14,790 nt of DNA, from assembly GCA_002438605.1 (NCBI GenBank), contig DJPR01000040.1:8018-22807 (forward strand), given 5' to 3'. The DNA comes from Ruminococcus sp. UBA6407 (GTDB taxonomy: Bacteria > Bacillota > Clostridia > Oscillospirales > Ruminococcaceae). Below the pieces are notes generated by a model, which saw only the letters and a list, made by a program, of their open reading frames with translations, was not told where the DNA came from and made no database searches. Numbering within the stretch: position 1 is the stretch's first letter; the number at the start of each line of letters is the position of its first letter. Of the stretch, positions 3,333-14,688 are shown piece by piece. The position numbers were made by a program, and so were the translations under genes.

Positions 3333-3360
3333 CTAAAACTCAAATATGTTTATATATGAT

Positions 3361-3376
3361 AGGAGTGAGTGACGTG
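3361..3376 (+). promoter_or_regulatory. Ribosome binding site fixing a GTG start
   Basis: AGGAG at 3361-3365 sits 8 bases before the GTG at 3374. An in-frame ATG at 3356 lies upstream of this site with no ribosome binding site of its own. Starting at the GTG also gives a textbook signal peptide (MKRKSK, then a hydrophobic core). Confidence 0.8.
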
Positions 3377-4129
3377 AAACGAAAATCAAAATTATCTTTA
3401 CTATTGGCTGTTGTTATGTTCTTTTCTGTTATACCCACTGCAAATAATGCCGCAGCTGTTGACCAGGAAACAGCTTATCAGGCATTGGCAGATGAAGTTG
3501 TTGTTATAGTCAATGAACAAAGAATGGAAGAGGGTTTAACTCCGTTAAAGGCTGTCCCCATATTAAATGATGCGTCAGCAGTAAGAGCTGCTGAAATAAA
3601 AGATGAATTCAGCCATTATCGCCCGAATGGCGACCTGTTTGCCAGTGTTTTAACTGAAAATAAGGTCATCACCTTTTCTTGTGCGGAAAATATAGCCGCA
3701 GGAATGCCTACGGCAGATGACACCATGCATCAATGGATGAATTCTGAAGGCCATAAAAAAAATATAATGAATCCTGATTATACGCATATCGGAGTTGGTG
3801 TTTATTATGATGAGGACTCAACTTACGGTTGGTATTGGTCGCAAATATTTATAAAGTCGAGTAAAAAGTTTGATGGAGAATATTATCCTCAGCGATATTA
3901 TGTTATTCCCGAGTGTGTCGGAGATATAAACGGTGACAGTGAAGTGGATATGTTTGATTATGTCACCTTGACAAATTATTTTAATAATAAAATAATCTTT
4001 AATGATTTGCAAATGAAGAGTGCTGATTGTCTTGCGGACGGCGTTGTCAGTGTATCTGACGCAGTAATACTTGTGCGTTATATAAATCGCAAGTGTGATA
4101 CTTTGCCTTTGAGTCCGGACGACTTGTAA
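3374..4129 (+). CDS. Secreted CAP (SCP/PR-1) domain protein with dockerin
   Basis: A 251-residue exported protein. Residues 1-28 are a signal peptide (MKRKSK, hydrophobic core, cleavage near AAA-V). Residues about 35-165 are a CAP domain with the cavity residues H81 (FSHYRPNG), E105 (AENIA), E125 and H127 (SEGHKKNIM). Residues about 182-240 are a type I dockerin. Its first calcium loop is canonical (D184, N186, D188, D192, D195). The second is degenerate, with L220 and S226 where Asn and Asp are expected. Dockerins bind cohesins on scaffoldins or the cell surface, so the protein is probably displayed on the cellulosome or wall. The molecular role of bacterial CAP domains is not settled. It starts a two-gene operon with a paralogue 15 nt downstream. 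Confidence 0.9.
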   Translation: MKRKSKLSLLLAVVMFFSVIPTANNAAAVDQETAYQALADEVVVIVNEQRMEEGLTPLKAVPILNDASAVRAAEIKDEFSHYRPNGDLFASVLTENKVITFSCAENIAAGMPTADDTMHQWMNSEGHKKNIMNPDYTHIGVGVYYDEDSTYGWYWSQIFIKSSKKFDGEYYPQRYYVIPECVGDINGDSEVDMFDYVTLTNYFNNKIIFNDLQMKSADCLADGVVSVSDAVILVRYINRKCDTLPLSPDDL

Positions 4130-4144
4130 TTCGGAGAGTGTGAT

Positions 4145-4921
4145 ATGACAAGAAATAAGCTGATTTCTATAGCTGTATCAGGCTTGATTTTATTTTCGGG
4201 AATTTTCTGCGGCGGCATTGATTATTTTATGACTGATTATGAACTTTCTGCCTATGCTTATGAAAATCAGGGTGAAAGTGAAAGAATGTTACGGCTTGCC
4301 AATGAAAAACGCAGAGCAAACGGACTTCAGGAATTAAAATTATATCCCAAGCTATGTCAGTTGGCGAATATCAGAGCTAAAGAGCTGGTGCAGAAGTTTG
4401 ACCATACTCGTCCGAATGGTTCGGATTGTTTTACTGTTTTAAATGATGTAAGCTATTATTGGGCAGGGGAGAACATTGCTTACAACTATCATTCATCACC
4501 TGATAAAGTATTTAATCAGTGGTTGAATTCAGAGGGTCACAGAAATAATATATTGAACAGCAATGCAACTCATATTGGTGCAGGATTTTATAAAGCGTCT
4601 GACGGACGTTGCTATTGGGTACAGATTTTGGTTGGCGGGCCGTCTTACAGCGGAGAGTATACACCTGCATATAATGACGGTTCAGCTTACAGTATAGGAG
4701 ATGCTGACGGAAACGGAACTGTAGATGCTGTAGACGCTTCAATTGCATTAACGTGTTATGCACAAATGCAGACGGGAAACGGGATTAGTCTCAGTTTACA
4801 GGAAAAACAGGCTTGTGATGTAAATCAGGACGGAGTAATAGATTCAATTGATGCATCACAGATACTTGGGTATTATGCAATGAATAGTACAGGAAAGTGT
4901 CCTTACTTTTCTGAAAGATAA
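4145..4921 (+). CDS. Second secreted CAP domain protein with dockerin
   Basis: A 258-residue paralogue of the preceding gene. The N-terminus carries a hydrophobic export segment (about 5-24) and a likely cleavage site after SAYA (35-38). The CAP domain spans about 45-165, with H87 (FDHTRPNG), E109 (GEN), E130 and H132 (SEGHRNNIL). The C-terminal dockerin (about 184-245) has two canonical calcium loops: D186/D188/N190/D194/D197 and D225/N227/D229/D233/D236. GGAG at 4133-4136 with an 8-nt spacer supports the ATG. The two genes differ clearly in sequence, so the duplication is old, and only this copy keeps both dockerin loops intact. Confidence 0.92.
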   Translation: MTRNKLISIAVSGLILFSGIFCGGIDYFMTDYELSAYAYENQGESERMLRLANEKRRANGLQELKLYPKLCQLANIRAKELVQKFDHTRPNGSDCFTVLNDVSYYWAGENIAYNYHSSPDKVFNQWLNSEGHRNNILNSNATHIGAGFYKASDGRCYWVQILVGGPSYSGEYTPAYNDGSAYSIGDADGNGTVDAVDASIALTCYAQMQTGNGISLSLQEKQACDVNQDGVIDSIDASQILGYYAMNSTGKCPYFSER

Positions 4922-5094: not shown

Positions 5095-7764
5095 TTATGC
5101 TTTTTTGCTGTTTGTCAATGCCTTTCTGATAAGGTCTATCGGAATCATGGTTACAGCCATGATTACAACTGCTATCCAGCCTTTAATGCCAAATGGCTCA
5201 CAGCTGAACATTTCTCCGATAAATTCAAATATTTTAAGCGGAACACGTCCTGCATTAACGATAAGTGCCTGAACAATGATAATAGTAAAGAATACCTTTA
5301 AGAAACCTTTATTTTCATTAAGTCCCTTGAAGATACCGAATCCGTCATCACGAACATTAAAGCCGTTAAACAATGCACTTACAATAAACAGTACAAAATA
5401 TCCGGTATAGAATTGTGCATCTGTTTCAAAGAGGTTTCTGAAGAATGGAACAAGGAAGTAAATGAAGCTCATAACGATAAGCCATGCACCCATTATAAGA
5501 ATTTGTATACCCATTTTTTTGCTTATAATGCTTTCATCTCGTCTTCTTGGCTTTTCCTTCATATATTTAGGCTGTGCAGGCTCATTTCCAAGCATGATTG
5601 CACCCAAGCCGTCCATAACGAGATTTACGAAAAGCAGATGTGTAACCTTTAACGGTTCTTCAACTCCGAAGAATGGAGCAATTGCACTTACAACTACGGC
5701 TGCAACGTTGATTACAAGCTGGAATACACAGAATTTCAAAATGTTGTGGTAGATTGTTCTTCCGTACCATATAGCGTCCTTGATAGACTTGAAGTTATCG
5801 TCAAGAACAACGATTTTACCTGCTTCCTTGGCAGCCTCAGTACCGCTTCCCATAGCAAAGCCAACGTCAGCACGTTTAAGAGCAGGGGAGTCATTAACAC
5901 CGTCACCTGTCATACCTACAACGAGGTTCATTTCCTGACAAAGACGTACCATTCTTGACTTATCTGTCGGCAATGCTCTTGCAATTACTCTTATATCAGG
6001 AATAATTTTCTTGACCTCATCATCTGTCATGCTGTTGAGCTGTGCAGATGAAATTGCAATGTCCTTGTCGTTTACAAGCAAGCCTGTGTCCTTTGCGATT
6101 GCTACGGCAGTTTCAAGGCGGTCACCTGTAATCATAACTACCTGAATTCCAGCCTCCCTAACAAGCTTGATAGCTTCCTTGGCTTCTGTTCTTACGTCAT
6201 CTCTTATACCTACGAGTGCAGTAATTACAACGTCGTCATTGATTGAGTTTTCTGTAAGAGGTGCTTCTGAATATCCGAAAGCAAGAATACGCATAGCCTT
6301 TTGTGCCAGACTAAGAATTTTCTTGTTAAGAACGTCCATATCAATAGGCTTTACGTTGCCCTCGATGTCCATATAGTATTTGGCTTTGTCAAGAAGTCTT
6401 TCAGGTGCACCCTTGTAGAATGTCTTGCCAACCTTGTCGATGCGTACCTGACTGAATTTGTTTGTTGAGTTAAAGCCCTGGATTGCAGAAATTTCGTATT
6501 CCTTGTTGTCCTCAAGGAGTCTGAAGGTTTCCTCGCCGATAAACTTGGTAAGAGCCTGATCCGTTGCATTTCCGCCGATTACTCTATGCTCGGAGTCAAA
6601 CATTGACTGAGTGTTTTTGCCTATAGCAATATCAACAAGAGTTTTAACTTCCGTATGCTTTTTAAGCTCGTCCATTGAGTAGGTGTTTCCGTCAGCAGTG
6701 AAAAATTCAACAACCTCAAGAGAACCCTTTGTAATAGTACCTGTCTTATCACTGAAAAGAATATTAAGTGAACCTGCTGTTTCAATACCCTCTGCTTTTC
6801 TTACAAGAACGTTATGGTCAAGCATTTTGCTTGTGTTCTGCATAAGAACAAGAGAAATCATAAGCGGAAGTCCCTCAGGGACAGCACAGACGATAATAAC
6901 AACTGCAAGAGAAATTGCTTCAACGAATTTCTGGATTATCTCACTTACAGGCAATGAGAAAAATGCTGACGCACCGCCGTCTGTCTGGAAGAAAATGAAG
7001 TAAATAATGTACAAAACAGCAATAACTATTGCACCGATATATCCGAATGTGGAAATCTGCTTTGCAAGCTTTGCAAGCTTTACTTTAAGAGGCGAATCGG
7101 GGTCTTCCTCCTGCATTTCCTCTGCCATTTTACCCATCATTGTTTTAAGGCCTACACGTCTTACGTCCATAGTACCCTCGCCGTCAAAAACTACAGCACC
7201 TCGGAACAATGAATGTTTATCAACAAATGTATCACCTGTAATATCAGCAGGAAGGTCAAAGTCGCTTTCAGCGGCTGTTTTCTTACATTCCTCTGCTTCA
7301 CCGTTAAGTACGGAGTTGTCAACGCTGAGCTTGCCCGATACAAGAACACCGTCAGCAGGAATTTTATCTCCTGATTGGAGAATGATTTTATCTCCCACAA
7401 CTACATCGTCAACTTCAATAACGGAAATGAGGTTGTTACGCTTAACCTTGCAGGTATCTTTTTTTGTGCTGTCTTTCAGCTCTCTGTATTTTGTGTCACT
7501 TGCAACTCCTGTTTTTGCTGAAACGACTGCAACGATAAGAACTGCAACAATAGTTCCCAACGGCTCATAAATCTCAGCGTAACCGAAGAAAAACATTACA
7601 ATCATCAAAGCAGCAATTGCAAGAAGAATTTTAATCATTGGGTCGCCGAATGTTTCTTTGAATTCTTTCCAGAACGTAGTAGGCTCAGAATCAGGAATTG
7701 TATTCGAGCCGTATTTTTCTCGGGAAGCTTCTACTTCTTTGTCATTTAGTCCTTTAAATTCCAT
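5095..7764 (-). CDS. Calcium-translocating P-type ATPase, PMCA-type (IIB)
   Basis: An 889-residue membrane pump exporting Ca2+ from the cytoplasm at the cost of ATP. Key parts in order: N-terminal cation ATPase domain, first membrane pair (about 45-85), actuator loop with NGEA at 154-157 in place of TGES, PEGLP in M4 (296-300), phosphorylation site DKTGT with D339, nucleotide-binding KGAPERL (451-457), ITGDRLE (545-551), hinge TGDGVNDS (619-626), and six C-terminal helices. The M6 motif NLVMDG keeps the Asn and Asp of calcium site II. M5 has an Ala where SERCA has the site I Glu, as in one-calcium PMCA pumps. The start is set by GGAGG at 7776-7780; an in-frame ATG 10 codons earlier lies upstream of that site. 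It is transcribed in the same direction as the TerD operon, about 260 bp downstream of it and separated by a repeat. Confidence 0.93.
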   Translation of the reverse strand: MEFKGLNDKEVEASREKYGSNTIPDSEPTTFWKEFKETFGDPMIKILLAIAALMIVMFFFGYAEIYEPLGTIVAVLIVAVVSAKTGVASDTKYRELKDSTKKDTCKVKRNNLISVIEVDDVVVGDKIILQSGDKIPADGVLVSGKLSVDNSVLNGEAEECKKTAAESDFDLPADITGDTFVDKHSLFRGAVVFDGEGTMDVRRVGLKTMMGKMAEEMQEEDPDSPLKVKLAKLAKQISTFGYIGAIVIAVLYIIYFIFFQTDGGASAFFSLPVSEIIQKFVEAISLAVVIIVCAVPEGLPLMISLVLMQNTSKMLDHNVLVRKAEGIETAGSLNILFSDKTGTITKGSLEVVEFFTADGNTYSMDELKKHTEVKTLVDIAIGKNTQSMFDSEHRVIGGNATDQALTKFIGEETFRLLEDNKEYEISAIQGFNSTNKFSQVRIDKVGKTFYKGAPERLLDKAKYYMDIEGNVKPIDMDVLNKKILSLAQKAMRILAFGYSEAPLTENSINDDVVITALVGIRDDVRTEAKEAIKLVREAGIQVVMITGDRLETAVAIAKDTGLLVNDKDIAISSAQLNSMTDDEVKKIIPDIRVIARALPTDKSRMVRLCQEMNLVVGMTGDGVNDSPALKRADVGFAMGSGTEAAKEAGKIVVLDDNFKSIKDAIWYGRTIYHNILKFCVFQLVINVAAVVVSAIAPFFGVEEPLKVTHLLFVNLVMDGLGAIMLGNEPAQPKYMKEKPRRRDESIISKKMGIQILIMGAWLIVMSFIYFLVPFFRNLFETDAQFYTGYFVLFIVSALFNGFNVRDDGFGIFKGLNENKGFLKVFFTIIIVQALIVNAGRVPLKIFEFIGEMFSCEPFGIKGWIAVVIMAVTMIPIDLIRKALTNSKKA

Positions 7765-7775
7765 TTTTAAATTAT

Positions 7776-7780
7776 CCTCC
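7776..7780 (-). promoter_or_regulatory. Ribosome binding site fixing the ATPase start
   Basis: GGAGG on the minus strand, 11 bases before the ATG at 7764. It lies inside the stretch that would be coding if the earlier in-frame ATG at 7794 were used, and that earlier codon has no comparable site. Confidence 0.75.
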
Positions 7781-7825
7781 AAAAGTAAAGGCAAAGCCTG
7801 AAACGGTATGCTTCAAGATTTCCTT

Positions 7826-7855
7826 TTTATACAACAGCTTATAGCAATACAACAA
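7826..7855 (-). promoter_or_regulatory. Candidate ATPase promoter with -35 inside the repeat
   Basis: On the minus strand, TTGTTG (7855-7850) and TATAAA (7831-7826) are 18 bases apart, about 60 bases before the ATPase start. The -35 box lies in the terminal inverted repeat of repeat copy B and the -10 box lies just outside it. If functional, insertion of the repeat created or modified this promoter. Confidence 0.4.
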
Positions 7856-7998
7856 AATACTGCAGCTAATCTGACAATTCAAACCGCATATTACTGCGTT
7901 GTCCTCCTCACCATACGACAGTATGCTTTTGTCATCCGCCTTGTACTATGCGGTTTGCTTTTGCCAGCTTATGCTGCGTTGTTTTATTGCATTGCTAC
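7839..7998. repeat. MITE-like palindromic repeat, copy B (with 42-bp extra segment)
   Basis: A 160-bp relative of copy A (3104-3222) in the same orientation. It has inverted ends (TTATAGCAATAC; GCATTGCTAC) and inner inverted arms (AAACCGCATATTAC with GTACTATGCGGTTT). Relative to copy A it holds 42 extra bases (7903-7944), bordered on both sides by TTGT (7899-7902 and 7941-7944). The extra segment contains a small hairpin (CATAC-GACA-GTATG) and CTCACCATACGACAGTAT, which recurs exactly at the right edge of the window (14773-14790). It occupies the gap between the TerD operon and the ATPase gene and may act as a transcript-end structure for the operon. No other terminator is obvious there. Confidence 0.75.
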
Positions 7999-8025
7999 AG
8001 AGCTTGTTCTTACTATATAAGCTTA

Positions 8026-8616
8026 TTATGCAAATCTTCTTGCAAGTTCTGCAAGTCCGGGGTCTTTTGTACCCTGACCGATAGCACTGAACTTCCATTC
8101 ACCATTATGTCTGTATACTTCGCCAAATATCAAGGCTGTCTGTCCTGAGTAATCGTCTGTAAGATTATATCTGCACATTTCGTTATTTGTAGCCTTATCC
8201 ACAAGTCTGATAAAAGCATTCTGAATCATTCCGAAATGCTGTTTTCTTTCATAAGCCTTATAGATATTTACTACCATAACGATTTTATCCACATCTTCAG
8301 GAACCTGTTGCAGATTAATGATAATCTGTTCATCATCGCCTGCACCTGCACCTGTAAGGTTATCGCCCTGATGAATAACACCGCCTGAGCTATGTCTTAA
8401 ATTGCCGAAATAAACTATGTCCTGAGTACCTCCTGTGAGCTTGCCATTTCTGAGAAGAATTGCAGAAGCGTCACAGTCAATAGGCTGCGGCTTGAATGAA
8501 AACAGACCTCTTGCTTTTTTAGCCTCGTCCCAGCCGAGTCCGACAAGAATTGATGAAAGTCCTGCATTATCCTTTGATAAACTTACCTTTTGTCCTTTTT
8601 GTAAACTTACTGACAT
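8026..8616 (-). CDS. TerD-family protein with divergent calcium loop
   Basis: A 196-residue cytoplasmic TerD-domain protein, last gene of the Ter operon. It has the N-terminal KGQKVSL strand, GLGWD (26-30), YFGNLRH, the signature GDNLTGAGAGDDEQ (84-97) and the C-terminal HNGEWKFSAIG. It differs from its two neighbours in three ways: six extra residues between GLGWD and the DxDAS motif, DCDAS in place of DLDA, and A92 where the others have Asp (D86) in the calcium loop. TerD proteins bind calcium and act in tellurite and general chemical or envelope stress. This copy may bind calcium differently or have a separate structural role. The ribosome binding site (GAGAGG) is weaker and further from the ATG than those of its neighbours. 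It lies 25 nt after the preceding gene. Confidence 0.9.
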   Translation of the reverse strand: MSVSLQKGQKVSLSKDNAGLSSILVGLGWDEAKKARGLFSFKPQPIDCDASAILLRNGKLTGGTQDIVYFGNLRHSSGGVIHQGDNLTGAGAGDDEQIIINLQQVPEDVDKIVMVVNIYKAYERKQHFGMIQNAFIRLVDKATNNEMCRYNLTDDYSGQTALIFGEVYRHNGEWKFSAIGQGTKDPGLAELARRFA

Positions 8617-8641: not shown

Positions 8642-9223
8642 TTATTCTACCTCAACGCCGAAGTTTTCACATAATGCAGCAAGTCCGCCCTGAAATCCGC
8701 TTCCGATTGCATTAAACTTCCATTCGCCGTTGTGTTTATAAAGCTCGCCGAATACTGCTGATGTTTCAATTGAGAAATCCTCGCCCAAATCGTATCTGAG
8801 GAGCTCTTCGCCTGTTTCTTCATTGTAAACACGAATAAATGCGTTGCTTACCTGTCCGAAATTCTGGCGTCTTTGGTCAGCCTCAAAAATTGTGGCTGTA
8901 AATGTAATTTTCTCAACCTCAGCAGGAATGAGTGATAAGTCAACCTTAATCTGCTCATCATCACCATCGCCTGCACCTGTACGGTTATCGCCAAGATGTG
9001 TAACTGCTCCTGACTTGTGCTTTAAATTTCCGTAAAATACAAAATCACTTGAATCTGCAACCTTGCCTGTGCTTGTAAGCAGGAAAGCTGCTGCATCGAG
9101 GTCAAAAGCAGAACCTGTATCAAATTTATTTGTATCCCAGCCAAGACCTACTACAACTTTTTTAAGTCCCGGAGCACTTTTGGAAAGGCTTACCTTCTGA
9201 CCTTTGCTTAAACTGATTGGCAT
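8642..9223 (-). CDS. terD: TerD-family calcium-binding stress protein
   Basis: A 193-residue TerD domain. Motifs: GLGWD (26-30), FDLDAAAF (40-47), YGNLKHKSG, and the calcium signature [14 protein letters not shown] (78-91), all canonical. The start is the ATG at 9223, preceded by AGGAGG (9233-9238) that overlaps the stop codon of the upstream terD gene, so translation is probably coupled. Reading from the in-frame ATG at 9319 would overlap the upstream gene by 82 bases and add a basic N-terminus foreign to the family. It is very similar to the upstream copy and is probably a recent tandem duplicate. Confidence 0.93.
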
Positions 9224-9237
9224 AATAAATATCCTCC

Positions 9238-9819
9238 TTATGCAACTTCTATTCCATAGTGACCGCATAATGCAGCGAGTCCGCCCTGGAATCCGCTTCC
9301 GATTGCGTTGAACTTCCATTCGCCGTTTATTCTGTAAATTTCGCCTACAACAACGGCTGTTTCAATTGAGAAGTCCTCGCCCAAATCATATCTGATTATT
9401 TCCTGATTTGTAACAGTGTCAACTATTCTGATGTAAGCATTTGAAACCTGTCCAAAATTCTGTCTTCTGTTTTCAGCGTCATAAATAGTTACAGTGAATG
9501 CAACCCTTGCTATATTTTCAGGGATTTTTGAAAGGTCGATCTTTATCTGTTCGTCATCACCATCACCCTCACCTGTACGGTTGTCGCCCATATGTTCAAC
9601 AGAGCCTGACTTGTGCTTGAGGTTTCCGTAGAAGATGAACTCCTGATCTGTAGGGCATTTTCCGTTTTCTCCGACCATGAATACAGAAGCATCAAGGTCA
9701 AAGTTTGCACCTGAATCAAACGCATTAACGTCCCAGCCAAGACCTATTATAATGTTTTTAAGTCCCGGATTTCCCTTTGTTAAATCGACCTTTTGTCCTT
9801 TTGTCAAATTGATTGGCAT
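9238..9819 (-). CDS. terD: TerD-family calcium-binding stress protein
   Basis: A 193-residue TerD domain with GLGWD (26-30), FDLDASVF (40-47), YGNLKHKSG and [14 protein letters not shown] (78-91). This last segment carries the acidic residues that bind calcium in characterised TerD proteins. It has a strong AGGAGGAAAG site before the ATG. It is the first of three tandem terD-like genes and follows the TelA gene by 15 nt, the order seen in the Bacillus subtilis yce-type stress operon, which also combines several TerD paralogues with TelA and YceG proteins. A cytoplasmic role in tolerance to tellurite or envelope stress is known for the family; the trigger here is unknown. Confidence 0.94.
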
Positions 9820-10999: not shown

Positions 11000-13270
11000 T
11001 TAAACACCCCTTCTGAATAATTTTTTATGCCATGGCTGGCGTGAAACATTTGATATATGTGAGAAATCAGGAATCTGCAAATCATAAACGTATTCACCGA
11101 TCTGATGTTCTTCAATAATTTGCTGTGTGTAGTATTCTTCTATGTTCTGATAGCCTGTCGGAATAAAGAATACAACATCAAATCCGATAAGACTGAGAAA
11201 GGCAATTACTACAGCCTCCTCAAAACTGATAATGCTTTCGCCTGTATTTATATAAATAAGCTTTGGATTTTTCTTTGTAAAGTCAAAGTTCTGGATTTTC
11301 CTTATAAGCTTTTGGTCTATGTTAAGCAATGATGATATTATTGTATATTCAGTACCGTTTTCAAAGGTACCTTTAATCAGCCTGCGGTTAATAAGTGTTT
11401 CTATTTTATCAAATATATATTCCTGCACTTCATTGCGGAGTACAGTATATTTATAATATTTGCACTCTTTAATTTTACTGCGTAAAAGTTTGCCGTTCTT
11501 CCAGAATGAAACTGCAAACTGCTTTATTTGATTTACCTCGGATGAGCCGTATTTGCCTGCCCTCATTACAACAGTATCAGGCGTAATAAGAGCCTTTACA
11601 GACTGCCAGTAAGCAGTTACATTTCTGTCCTTAATGCCCGAAACCTTTGAAAGAATAACGGGTATGGTGACTTCATTATTTTCTGTCGAAAAGCTTGGAC
11701 GATATTTAAGCTCCTGATCCCATAAAATTGCAATTTCCTCATACATTGTTTTAAGTATTACGGTATTTGCTTTGGAATACTGACGGTTTCTGTACATTCC
11801 CGAATCCTGATACATAAGCGTGTCAAGCTCACGTTCGGCATGATAAGCTGTAGTGCCGACAGAAACGGTTGAATTGCTGTCAGGGAATTTTGATACGCTC
11901 AGCGAATCCTCATAGTTAAATTCTTTTAATCTGCTGTCAGTTAAACAGCATTTCATGTTAAGGTCGGGAACAAGTATGATTACGTCAACAGGGAGCTTTG
12001 AAATAAGCTTTACAAACATTGCCTCACAATTGTTTTTACAGCCTCCAAGCATTACAAAACAGCTTATATCTCCGACAGACCAATTTGAAAGAAGTGCAGA
12101 CTGATAGCGTTTCAGCCAGCATAACACATAAACAGCGTCATTTATAAGTCTGTTGAGTGAGAGCTTTTCAGCTTCGGCTTCTTTTAAAAGAACACTGATA
12201 AATTCATACCGCATAAGCTGTTGAAGCTGATTATTATTTGCATAAATAATATTATGCGACAAATCAGACAATGCAGTTTCCGCACTGTTATAATTCTTTC
12301 TGTTAATATCAGCTATTTCATCGGTAGTAGGCAGGGGTATTTCACGATTAAGTGAAAGAAATCTGCGTTTCGAGGCTTTAAGCTCCAGATTAAAGCTTAT
12401 AAGCTCATTAATGTAAGTACATTTATCATAAGCACCGTTAATGCGGTAGAAAATTGTATTATATGATGTTTCACTGCTGCCTCTCGTATTAAGAGGAGTA
12501 AGAGCATCAAGGAGTCCCTCACCCTTTGCCCATGAATTTACGCAACTTTGAAGCTTTGGAGCTGTTCCGAAGGCACGTTCGGCATTATATTGCTTTGCTA
12601 TTTCCTTTTGCAGAGCTTTTAATGAAAATCCGTCAGGAAATCCAACAGAATTATCTGCTGTATATTTATCGGAAAATTCAGAATTCGGGTCATTTTTAAT
12701 GTAATCTGCATCACCGCTGTACTCAAGCATTATAATGTCACAGCCTGCTTTTGAAAGTACAGTCAGGAGTAAAAGCTCATATTTTCCCGGAATACCCTCG
12801 TATAATATTTTAGGAATATCAGTATTGCCAAGCTTATTGGCAATGCGTTCAAATTTATAGTAAAGCCAGCACATGAATTTAATGTAGGCATTTTTTAGCA
12901 TATTTTCATTTTTGCCCGAATTTTTTAAGGAAATCAGGGTATCATATATTGATGTGCTGACTATATTCCGCTGATTATCAGTCATTCTGGGCAGCCATTT
13001 CCGCAGCTGTTCATTTATAAACGAACAGTCTGTTTTGTAAGCGTCACCTATCATTTCATAATAATAGGAAAGGTTATTTTCATTCGGATTTGGTATTCCG
13101 CCTTCTATGATAACGCCGTTTAATCGAGCCGAATTATAATATTTTAAAAGAAAAGCCTTTACAGTGTCAGTGTAATCAGCTATTCTGTAGAAGTATACGC
13201 TGTTATTTTCTCTTTTTGAAAGGTCAAGAAAATAGTCGTCAAGGGACGATATTTTTTTATGCTGAAACAT
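11000..13270 (-). CDS. yceG: YceG-like Ter-operon protein with internal repeats
   Basis: A 756-residue, probably cytoplasmic protein without signal peptide or clear membrane segments. By position next to TelA and TerD, and by overall features, I assign it to the YceG family of Ter-linked operons. The family is known from context only, with no proven activity. Inside it I see a repeated unit: a WL pair (135 and 385), a strand, a hydrophobic helix ending in a C/V/F-D-I/V-I/V motif, then FPD (211 and 462). A third, weaker copy lies at about 652-745, ending IPDFS. After FPD the first two copies also share YxAER and an ExKxRxxFxxxNxE stretch, so about 200 residues appear duplicated. The start at 13270 follows AGAGGTG (13280-13286). 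An alternative ATG at 13300 overlaps the previous stop (TAATG) but has a poor ribosome binding site. Confidence 0.75.
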   Translation of the reverse strand: MFQHKKISSLDDYFLDLSKRENNSVYFYRIADYTDTVKAFLLKYYNSARLNGVIIEGGIPNPNENNLSYYYEMIGDAYKTDCSFINEQLRKWLPRMTDNQRNIVSTSIYDTLISLKNSGKNENMLKNAYIKFMCWLYYKFERIANKLGNTDIPKILYEGIPGKYELLLLTVLSKAGCDIIMLEYSGDADYIKNDPNSEFSDKYTADNSVGFPDGFSLKALQKEIAKQYNAERAFGTAPKLQSCVNSWAKGEGLLDALTPLNTRGSSETSYNTIFYRINGAYDKCTYINELISFNLELKASKRRFLSLNREIPLPTTDEIADINRKNYNSAETALSDLSHNIIYANNNQLQQLMRYEFISVLLKEAEAEKLSLNRLINDAVYVLCWLKRYQSALLSNWSVGDISCFVMLGGCKNNCEAMFVKLISKLPVDVIILVPDLNMKCCLTDSRLKEFNYEDSLSVSKFPDSNSTVSVGTTAYHAERELDTLMYQDSGMYRNRQYSKANTVILKTMYEEIAILWDQELKYRPSFSTENNEVTIPVILSKVSGIKDRNVTAYWQSVKALITPDTVVMRAGKYGSSEVNQIKQFAVSFWKNGKLLRSKIKECKYYKYTVLRNEVQEYIFDKIETLINRRLIKGTFENGTEYTIISSLLNIDQKLIRKIQNFDFTKKNPKLIYINTGESIISFEEAVVIAFLSLIGFDVVFFIPTGYQNIEEYYTQQIIEEHQIGEYVYDLQIPDFSHISNVSRQPWHKKLFRRGV

Positions 13271-13279
13271 TACACGCTT

Positions 13280-13286
13280 CACCTCT
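13280..13286 (-). promoter_or_regulatory. Ribosome binding site favouring the 13270 start
   Basis: AGAGGTG on the minus strand lies 9 bases before the ATG at 13270 and downstream of the alternative ATG at 13300. It therefore argues for the shorter protein, although TAATG coupling at 13300 cannot be excluded. Confidence 0.6.
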
Positions 13287-13299
13287 GTAAAAACCCGCA

Positions 13300-14688
13300 T
13301 TAGTAAATAAATCCGTTTATAAAGTCGTTTATGAATTTATAGCTGACTGCCAGATTGATATTTTGTCCGCTGTCAATACCTGCCGTGCTTATTCCTATTA
13401 CCTCACCGTACATATTAAGCAAAGCACCGCCTGAGCTTCCATGTGATGTTGGGGCTGTATACTGTATCATTTCAACGCAGTCAATTGTTCTGAAGCCTGA
13501 AATAATGCCGTCTGAAACGGTATTGAAAAGTCCAAGCGGACTTCCTATTGCAACAACCCTCTGACCTCTTGCAAGCTTTTCTCCATGATAAAATTTAAGC
13601 GGAACAAGCTCACGTTCTATTTTAATTACAGCAAGGTCCTGAATGGTATTGTATTTTACGATTTCATCTGTTTCATATATTCTGTCATCGTCTTCAATTT
13701 TAACGGAATAAAACATTCCGCCTCTGGCAACATGATTGTTTGTAAGGATAAATCCGCTTCTTCCAATCATAATGCCCGAACCGCTGCCGATAACTTCGCC
13801 CTTTTCGTTGTGTATGGCAATAAGGACAACAGATGACGCTGATTTTGCCAATTCCTCTATCGACTTTTCACAGCGTAAGCCTTGCCCTTTATTGTTTGAA
13901 AAATTATGAATATTATTCCTTTTTGACATTGGTCTTTCAGGTAAAATAATTTTAATTTTGTTTTCTGAACTGCCGTTTACAATGTTACTGCTTGTCTTAT
14001 CCGGAAATTTACGGCAGTCGTATGCATTTATGTGAAATTCTCTTTTTTCACCCATTACAAATGAGCTTGAAAGGTGCAGGCGTTCTGCCGCAGAATCTAT
14101 GTCCTTTTCACATTGTATGAGCAGAATGTCGAAATCAATTAAAGCAAGAAGATAGCAGAAAAGGTATTCATGTATTCCGCTTACATTTTCAAATATGACC
14201 TTTGCGTTATATTCAGAATCAAACTTGAATGAGAGCTTTTCGCAGATGCAGTCAAGCCAGAACATCAGCTTTATGCAGAAGTTCCTTTCAATAGTCTGAG
14301 TTGCGTTTGAGCGAAATTTTAAAAAAATATCCCGCACCAATTGTATTGAACGGTCAACTGATGAATTATTATATATGTATTTTGTATGCAGGTCACGAAA
14401 ATTATTTTTTATCCATGCTTCATAGCATTTTGAGTAAAAATCAATATCATTGTTCAGATTAAGCTTAGGAAAATTATCTGTTCGGAGGTAAAAAAGCTTT
14501 TCAGCAGTTCTGCCGGACAAGAAGTAATCTGTTTTTTCAACATCTTCAGCCAATGAACTGTAATAACCTATTAAACGTACAAAGCATAAGTTCCTGCTTT
14601 CAGGCAGATTTCGCCTGTTATAGCAGCAAAAATCCGAAAATGATTTAATTTCCGCATTATTGGTTCTTATGCCCGGTAATTCTTCCAT
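13300..14688 (-). CDS. YceG-module / trypsin-like serine protease fusion
   Basis: A 462-residue protein heading the Ter operon. Residues about 105-235 resemble the repeated unit of the YceG-like neighbour: WL at 144-145, the strand-helix segment AKVIFENVSGIHEY to DFDILL at about 162-190, and KFPD at 227-230. Residues about 280-460 are an HtrA-like trypsin domain with GSGSGIMI (301-308), H319 in TNNHVA, D351 in QDLAVIKI and S419 in HGSSGGALLN, so the triad is complete. No signal peptide, membrane segment or PDZ domain is seen, so it should act in the cytoplasm. I infer that it cleaves or regulates a partner in the Ter system, with the N-terminal module giving targeting. The ATG follows AAAAGG at 11 nt, a modest site. 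No clear promoter is visible in the 100 bases before the window ends. Confidence 0.85.
   Translation of the reverse strand: MEELPGIRTNNAEIKSFSDFCCYNRRNLPESRNLCFVRLIGYYSSLAEDVEKTDYFLSGRTAEKLFYLRTDNFPKLNLNNDIDFYSKCYEAWIKNNFRDLHTKYIYNNSSVDRSIQLVRDIFLKFRSNATQTIERNFCIKLMFWLDCICEKLSFKFDSEYNAKVIFENVSGIHEYLFCYLLALIDFDILLIQCEKDIDSAAERLHLSSSFVMGEKREFHINAYDCRKFPDKTSSNIVNGSSENKIKIILPERPMSKRNNIHNFSNNKGQGLRCEKSIEELAKSASSVVLIAIHNEKGEVIGSGSGIMIGRSGFILTNNHVARGGMFYSVKIEDDDRIYETDEIVKYNTIQDLAVIKIERELVPLKFYHGEKLARGQRVVAIGSPLGLFNTVSDGIISGFRTIDCVEMIQYTAPTSHGSSGGALLNMYGEVIGISTAGIDSGQNINLAVSYKFINDFINGFIY

Follow-up and report, generated by a model that had tools for sequence, protein, structure and literature searches.

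The question raised by this locus is what a trypsin-like protease would do in a Ter operon. The locus lies in a stretch of 14,790 nucleotides from Ruminococcus sp. UBA6407 (contig DJPR01000040.1; the whole stretch is referred to as the window), in which the first gene of the Ter operon (13300..14688, reverse strand) is followed by the genes for YceG, TelA and three TerD proteins. Ter genes are widespread, and to our knowledge the way in which they protect cells is not settled. The first gene is an open reading frame (ORF) that starts with ATG, runs uninterrupted for 462 residues and encodes, in this order, a YceG-like N-terminal domain, a disordered linker and a trypsin domain of HtrA type (MEROPS S1C). 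From its architecture and its genomic neighbors, this YceG-S1C fusion very probably serves the Ter system specifically, as a soluble protease, and its recurrence beside Ter genes suggests that this stress system uses targeted protein cutting.

The Trypsin Domain and Its Active Site

The trypsin domain comprises residues 273–462 and the stop codon (13300..13872, on the reverse strand, as are all the features given below for the operon). In Pfam, Trypsin_2 (PF13365) matched residues 303–433 (E-value 3.5e-24; 86.6 bits, cut-off 27.6), and the nearest structures of the protease domain returned by Foldseek were RsgI9, DegS, HtrA1 and other HtrA proteins. The initial annotation, made from the sequence alone, had described an intact trypsin-like protease with its triad in HtrA-like contexts, and this was borne out: H319 (13732..13734) lies in TNNHV, D351 (13636..13638) in DLAV and S419 (13432..13434) in GSSGG. 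In a family alignment of 90 rows, the three residues are invariant (90/90) and GSSGG is kept in 89. Mean identity to the relatives in this alignment is 72% for the protease domain, 29% for the N-terminal domain and 14% for the linker; because similarity in the protease part helped to select the rows, the invariance of the triad and the gap in conservation between protease and adaptor are both inflated. The gap suggests a constant substrate and a co-evolving docking.

The fusion shares with the HtrA/Deg proteins the Trypsin_2 domain, the fold and the catalytic motifs, that is, the trypsin fold and His-Asp-Ser triad of the S1C class. It differs from them in carrying a YceG-like N-terminal domain, in lacking a leader and PDZ domains, and in scoring far below every NCBIfam HtrA/Deg cut-off (the best score was 114.5 bits, against 416.2 for TIGR02037). 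The Pfam search of the protein revealed no PDZ family at E ≤ 1, whereas the two other trypsin-domain proteins found in the genome of the window both have PDZ domains. Leader and membrane segments were judged by hydropathy alone: the highest 19-residue window within the first 60 residues of the fusion is 0.44, and none of the 90 family members reaches 1.6 within the first 50 residues. These results support the earlier claim that signal peptide and PDZ domain are absent. Beyond the first 50 residues, 23 of the 90 members show a stretch of at least 1.6, and 21 of these stretches, including that of the window fusion (residues 175–193, 1.87), correspond to the same helix and core strand of the predicted N-terminal domain; by this measure the fusion would be neither exported nor anchored in the membrane, unlike most HtrA proteins.

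The fold, its nearest structures (RsgI9, DegS and other HtrA proteins) and the setting in a stress operon are what would be expected of a cytosolic quality-control protease, a leaderless HtrA protein that would degrade proteins damaged by metal or oxidation and for which the YceG domain would be a mere tether. However, a PDZ domain with which to select unfolded clients is missing, and the pairing with one adaptor domain is nearly invariant, since the N-terminal domain is present in 118 of the best 120 listed homologues of the protease (113 cover at least 60% of its model). A quality-control function is for these reasons rather improbable.

The N-Terminal Domain and the Linker

The N-terminal alpha/beta domain (residues 1–215; 14044..14688) matched the family YceG_bac (PF14266) over residues 60–196 with 24.9 bits, only 0.1 below the cut-off of 25 bits; in a search of the whole genome the same match reached 30.5 bits, above the cut-off. 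The relationship was settled by profile-profile comparison with hhalign, for which 90 fusion proteins and 27 YceG proteins had been aligned: against the first repeat of the neighboring YceG the probability was 98.7% (E 1.5e-16), against the second repeat 95.2% and against the third 24%, and the protease half, used as a negative control, gave 0.1%. The kinship with the adjacent YceG proposed at the outset is supported by this result; in addition, loss of the triad together with a position remote from Ter genes was seen in none of the relatives found. A module WL ... FPD had been quoted as shared by the two proteins, and of this the tryptophan holds (W144 is conserved in 91% of the aligned family), whereas FPD (residues 229–231) is not kept in the family. 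Among distant relatives, those at loci L124 (71.0 bits) and L125 (77.4 bits; L numbers designate loci) exceed the PF14266 cut-off; those at L102, L104 and L106 gave no PF14266 match in Pfam at E ≤ 0.01, and they are linked to the domain by direct alignment to that of the window.

The YceG gene itself (11000..13270, 410 bits) contains three PF14266 stretches and no protease, whereas the fusion has one such stretch joined to a protease; one YceG repeat corresponds to the N-terminal domain of the fusion, and both proteins belong to the same operon. This YceG is the Ter-associated YceG of Bacillus, distinct from the MltG/YceG of E. coli. Its likely start is M11 of a longer ORF beginning at 13300, given that a ribosome-binding site (AGAGGTG, 13280–13286) precedes position 13270 and that homologues align from residue 11. 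A single-chain AlphaFold2 (AF2) model of residues 1–231 alone has a pLDDT of 91.6 and a pTM of 0.90; a fold search with the predicted domain gave no confident structural match. As modelled, the protein is formed by two confidently predicted domains joined by a disordered linker. A prediction from this is that YceG repeats serve for docking or for binding a ligand and can be passed as units to other proteins; LRR-YceG-trypsin and vWA-trypsin forms, described below, also exist.

The linker (residues 216–272; 13873..14043) has pLDDT values below 50 at residues 234–268. Within it lies the peptide IKIILPER (residues 245–252; 13933..13956), which follows the pattern [IV]x[IVLM]x[ILV]Px[RH]. This pattern occurs in 44 of the 90 linkers, with two strict copies each in two family proteins, and 300 composition shuffles yielded it 0.16 times on average and twice at most; the contrast is not a probability, because the pattern was drawn after inspection of the linkers and the sequences are related and hence non-independent. 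With its alternating beta-branched residues, the peptide might act as a latch, or the protease might cut itself there. It is a short element that can be tested directly.

Linkage to Ter Genes

Counting as Ter genes those for TerD, TelA, YceG or the Ter biosynthetic enzymes, at least one was found at 25 of 30 family loci and at none of 73 control trypsin loci; 65 of these controls are public loci from many mixed taxa that may lack Ter altogether, so that the contrast is overstated. At L143, which is among the 25, the sole Ter evidence is a TerD-like gene 8 kb away, of 29% identity, and at L100 and L101 the fusion adjoins biosynthetic genes, TerD, TelA and YceG being absent from the stretch. The five loci without Ter genes are L060 (at a contig end), L141 (a contig of 7.6 kb), L103 (the vWA form), L106 and L125. 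TerD is present in the genomes of the last three, and a full YceG lies elsewhere in two of these genomes, those of L103 and L106. In the genome of L125, YceG matches were located only within the fusion gene, whose YceG part is interrupted by a stop codon in this single-contig genome, or directly before it. Nine further genomes with family members all contain TerD, and eight of them a YceG separate from the fusion. The gene order in several named loci (for example L134 and L139) is PRTase_2, StiP, divergent C-C lyase, fusion, optional rhomboid, YceG, TelA, TerD, ATPase and HAD.

In a sample of 100 genomes of the genus, YceG was present in 28; the fusion was present in six, with one copy truncated where its contig ends, and all six fall within the 28 (Fisher 3e-4). 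An unrelated protease that landed beside a Ter operon by chance could account for the three genus loci in which the fusion lies behind TerD; the shared YceG domain, the co-occurrence with YceG and a linkage that recurs in two sample families (f1 and f60) and at all but one of 15 named loci already contradict such an explanation, whose probability is close to nil. The statement of the initial annotation that the protease is Ter-dedicated is upheld by these counts with the reservations given here; the cytoplasmic location and the cleavage of a partner or of itself that it also proposed are putative, as is activity of the protein. Its statement that the gene heads the operon holds for the window, in which a flavodoxin gene precedes the fusion, outside the window, with a terminator-like site behind it and a 12/12 sigma-70 match approximately 230 nt upstream of the fusion, also outside the window. 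Both signals are consensus matches only, and five promoter-like sites were found where 3.6 were expected; the position differs at the three genus loci just mentioned.

The gene directly before YceG could be evaluated at 24 genus loci, that of the window and 23 around YceG matches; it is rhomboid-like at 18 and the fusion at two, and 18 of the 20 genus Ter loci without a fusion start with a rhomboid gene. No rhomboid gene was detected in the genome of the window, though all 14 control genomes have one. The two proteases are not mutually exclusive, since five loci outside the genus sample carry both. The genes assigned as rhomboid directly before YceG are those of L040, L041, L042, L045, L046, L048–L051, L053–L055, L058, L061–L063, L066 and L068; the identity was established by Pfam for L040, and by BLAST to L040 for the others.

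Distribution and Phylogeny

With the protease part as query, 2675 of 7999 scored candidates reached E 1e-20, fusions and non-fusions together, and precomputed Pfam annotation already displays the YceG-trypsin combination in many proteins. Relatives occur elsewhere in the same taxonomic family, and two further families of the class have them as well; the named records with relatives over at least 200 residues are labelled Lachnospiraceae, Ruminococcus, Oscillospiraceae, Flavonifractor, Clostridiaceae and Eubacteriaceae, and one relative (L141) comes from a metagenome bin labelled Aeromonadales. Two relatives show other combinations of domains. The protein at L104 (3192–5567) has 791 residues with leucine-rich repeats (LRR), a YceG-like domain and a trypsin domain, and adjoins YceG and TerD; that at L103 (9191–10384) is a vWA-trypsin protein in which vWA replaces YceG, and it groups among the fusions with L102 (support 92/72). 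A tree was obtained from 26 sequences: 15 family members, five PDZ-type HtrA proteins, two of them from the genome of the window, and six other trypsins of the class. In this tree a branch with 100/100 support sets the family apart from the PDZ-type HtrA proteins that the genus also has.

Several observations weigh against an active, Ter-dedicated protease that arose once and is controlled through its linker. Five of the six other class trypsins branch, with weak support, between L125 and the remaining members, so that the tree does not establish that the family arose only once; the ORF at L145 aligns with residues 244–460 only. The fusion is missing from 22 of the 28 YceG genomes of the genus, hence it is not essential to Ter, and at the three genus loci already described it lies behind TerD and not before YceG. 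L103, L106 and L125 have an intact triad and no Ter gene within the stretch covered. At nine genus loci a PDZ-type HtrA gene lies approximately 6 kb from YceG, behind McrBC-like genes, so that the nearness of a trypsin gene to Ter is not in itself specific in this genus. The strict peptide is absent from 46 of the 90 linkers. Finally, in the Ter-linked row L105, G417 is absent and a serine replaces G421. This damage to GSSGG is what a catalytically idle domain that binds peptides or acts as a scaffold would predict; with the triad kept in 90 of 90 rows (chosen, as stated, partly by protease similarity) and GSSGG in 89, such a domain is very improbable for the family.

As to the L105 protein itself (7357–8589), this relative from a Ter operon adjoins a rhomboid gene and, with two glycines of GSSGG lost, is perhaps inactive.

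A Proposed Mode of Action

S1C proteases are usually held inactive and are switched on by a ligand or a partner, often through their PDZ domains. Since PDZ is absent from the fusion, the protease would be gated by the adaptor and the linker peptide. The YceG-type domain would replace PDZ as the adaptor and place the protease on an assembly of YceG, TelA and TerD; alternatively, it may bind the same partner or ligand as YceG does. Docking of the protease by this domain is, taken alone, slightly favored, and a Ter-dedicated protease together with adaptor docking is, as a joint proposal, reasonably probable. The linker peptide might fill the groove of the protease as a latch or serve as a site of self-cleavage; stress would then open the gate, and the protease would cut a conserved partner, a Ter or a membrane protein, at few sites or would free itself. 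This last part, gating or self-processing through the linker peptide, is tentative and rather doubtful.

PMC7824862 and PMC4633105 regard Ter proteins as likely sensors, at the membrane, of metal and of a nucleoside-like signal. A wider and unlikely extension would regard Ter systems as stress or immune systems executed by a protease, in which the slot at the head of the operon would hold a rhomboid, the fusion or both. A signal of the Ter system, perhaps a nucleoside-like product of the PRTase, StiP and C-C-lyase enzymes, would be read by the YceG domain and displace the linker peptide, here an encoded latch or self-substrate, thereby activating the protease. An active site that can be assayed would offer a handle on the output of Ter, and the substrate would reveal the role of the system.

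Comparison with Known Systems

The initial annotation had also proposed that the protease adds proteolysis to the Ter system, a novelty that must be qualified because rhomboid genes are common in the Ter loci of the genus and because a paper of 2008 (PMC2605481) already lists a fusion of TerD and trypsin from Pseudomonas syringae. The latter protein, YP_273108.1, likewise has trypsin joined to a Ter-system domain, and that paper calls it uncharacterised; it has TerD instead of YceG, a single protein is listed there, and it is set apart from the present fusion by its description and not by sequence. Among the papers listed by text searches of open-licence literature, no description was seen of the YceG-trypsin fusion, of its linker peptide or of the rhomboid link, though the 2012 survey of Ter (10.1039/c2mb25239b) may mention them. 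What appears to be new is an HtrA-type domain recruited to Ter systems without PDZ and, apparently, without export; the conserved linker peptide is new here, and, like the peptide, the finding that a protease gene mostly stands directly before YceG goes beyond the initial annotation.

According to PMC7159879 and PMC7824862, trypsin domains serve in prokaryotic conflict systems as peptidase components or as effectors, and there is a proposal that Ter acts on superinfecting phages and plasmids. The fusion could accordingly be seen as an effector that is restrained by the Ter complex and freed by the entry of a phage or plasmid, to cleave essential proteins of the host or proteins of the invader. 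The VMAP/MoxR-vWA and NucA conflict systems, as presented in PMC7159879, likewise tie trypsin to a sensory or effector operon; none of the MoxR, vWA, VMAP or NucA core genes was found among the seven window proteins scanned, which are encoded from 5095 onward. In PADLOC the trypsin part of the fusion matched the defense protein RT-Protease_XI (E 2e-16), from which the fusion differs in having no reverse transcriptase domain in Pfam at E ≤ 1. McrC-like genes (DUF2357/PDDEXK_7) precede the Ter genes at 12 genus loci, though at no fusion-bearing one. Nothing pointed to mobility: no match at E 1e-20 was obtained in 72,556 plasmid records, and seven phage records matched at 26–28% coverage only, gut clostridia being possibly sparse in both collections; moreover, strong conservation of the protease domain would be expected with a fixed substrate rather than in an arms race. 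We consider a conflict-type effector improbable.

The solved structure nearest to the fusion protease in both sequence and fold is the S1C domain of the anti-sigma-I factor RsgI9 (7sjy). By its title, RsgI9 is an anti-sigma factor that carries an S1C-NTF2 pair, whereas the N-terminal domain of the fusion is YceG-like.

Other Genes of the Operon and Neighboring Loci

Downstream of YceG, all on the strand of the fusion, lie TelA (PF05816; 9835..10998), with its likely start at M40 of the ORF from a ribosome-binding site, and three TerD genes (PF02342): TerD 1 (9238..9819, 290 bits), TerD 2 (8642..9223, 282 bits, likely start at M33 of the ORF, also from a ribosome-binding site) and TerD 3 (8026..8616, 255.5 bits). 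Behind TerD there is a P-type cation ATPase of the Ca type, assigned by Pfam (5095..7764; start from a ribosome-binding site). The same ATPase follows TerD at L132, L134, L135, L136, L138, L139 and L145, and also at L056 and L065, both without a fusion.

Additional genes were noticed around related loci. At L040 (2166–8632) and other genus loci, the genes before rhomboid-YceG-TelA-TerD encode the PDZ-type HtrA (nine loci), a protein of approximately 1070 residues with a sub-threshold AAA match and the McrC-like DUF2357/PDDEXK_7 protein (12 loci). Directly behind YceG, at the usual position of TelA, L102 (12600–13736) and L144 (12849–13988) encode conserved proteins of 378–379 residues with 74% mutual identity, which gave no Pfam family at E ≤ 0.01 and no match to the TelA profile. 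Upstream of YceG at L043 and L047 there are SbcC/SbcD, AIM24 and a long TerD protein (for L043 by BLAST to L047 only). A conserved three-gene cluster faces the fusion at L044 (3486–6636) and L057 (2534–5634); it encodes a PurA-like protein, a hypothetical protein of 302 residues and one with a sub-threshold PI3/4-kinase match. In the window itself, the translations of 335–2632 and 3356–4921 were read by eye as a DNA-binding/cupin/AMP-ligase fusion and as two tandem secreted CAP-like proteins with dockerin-like repeats.
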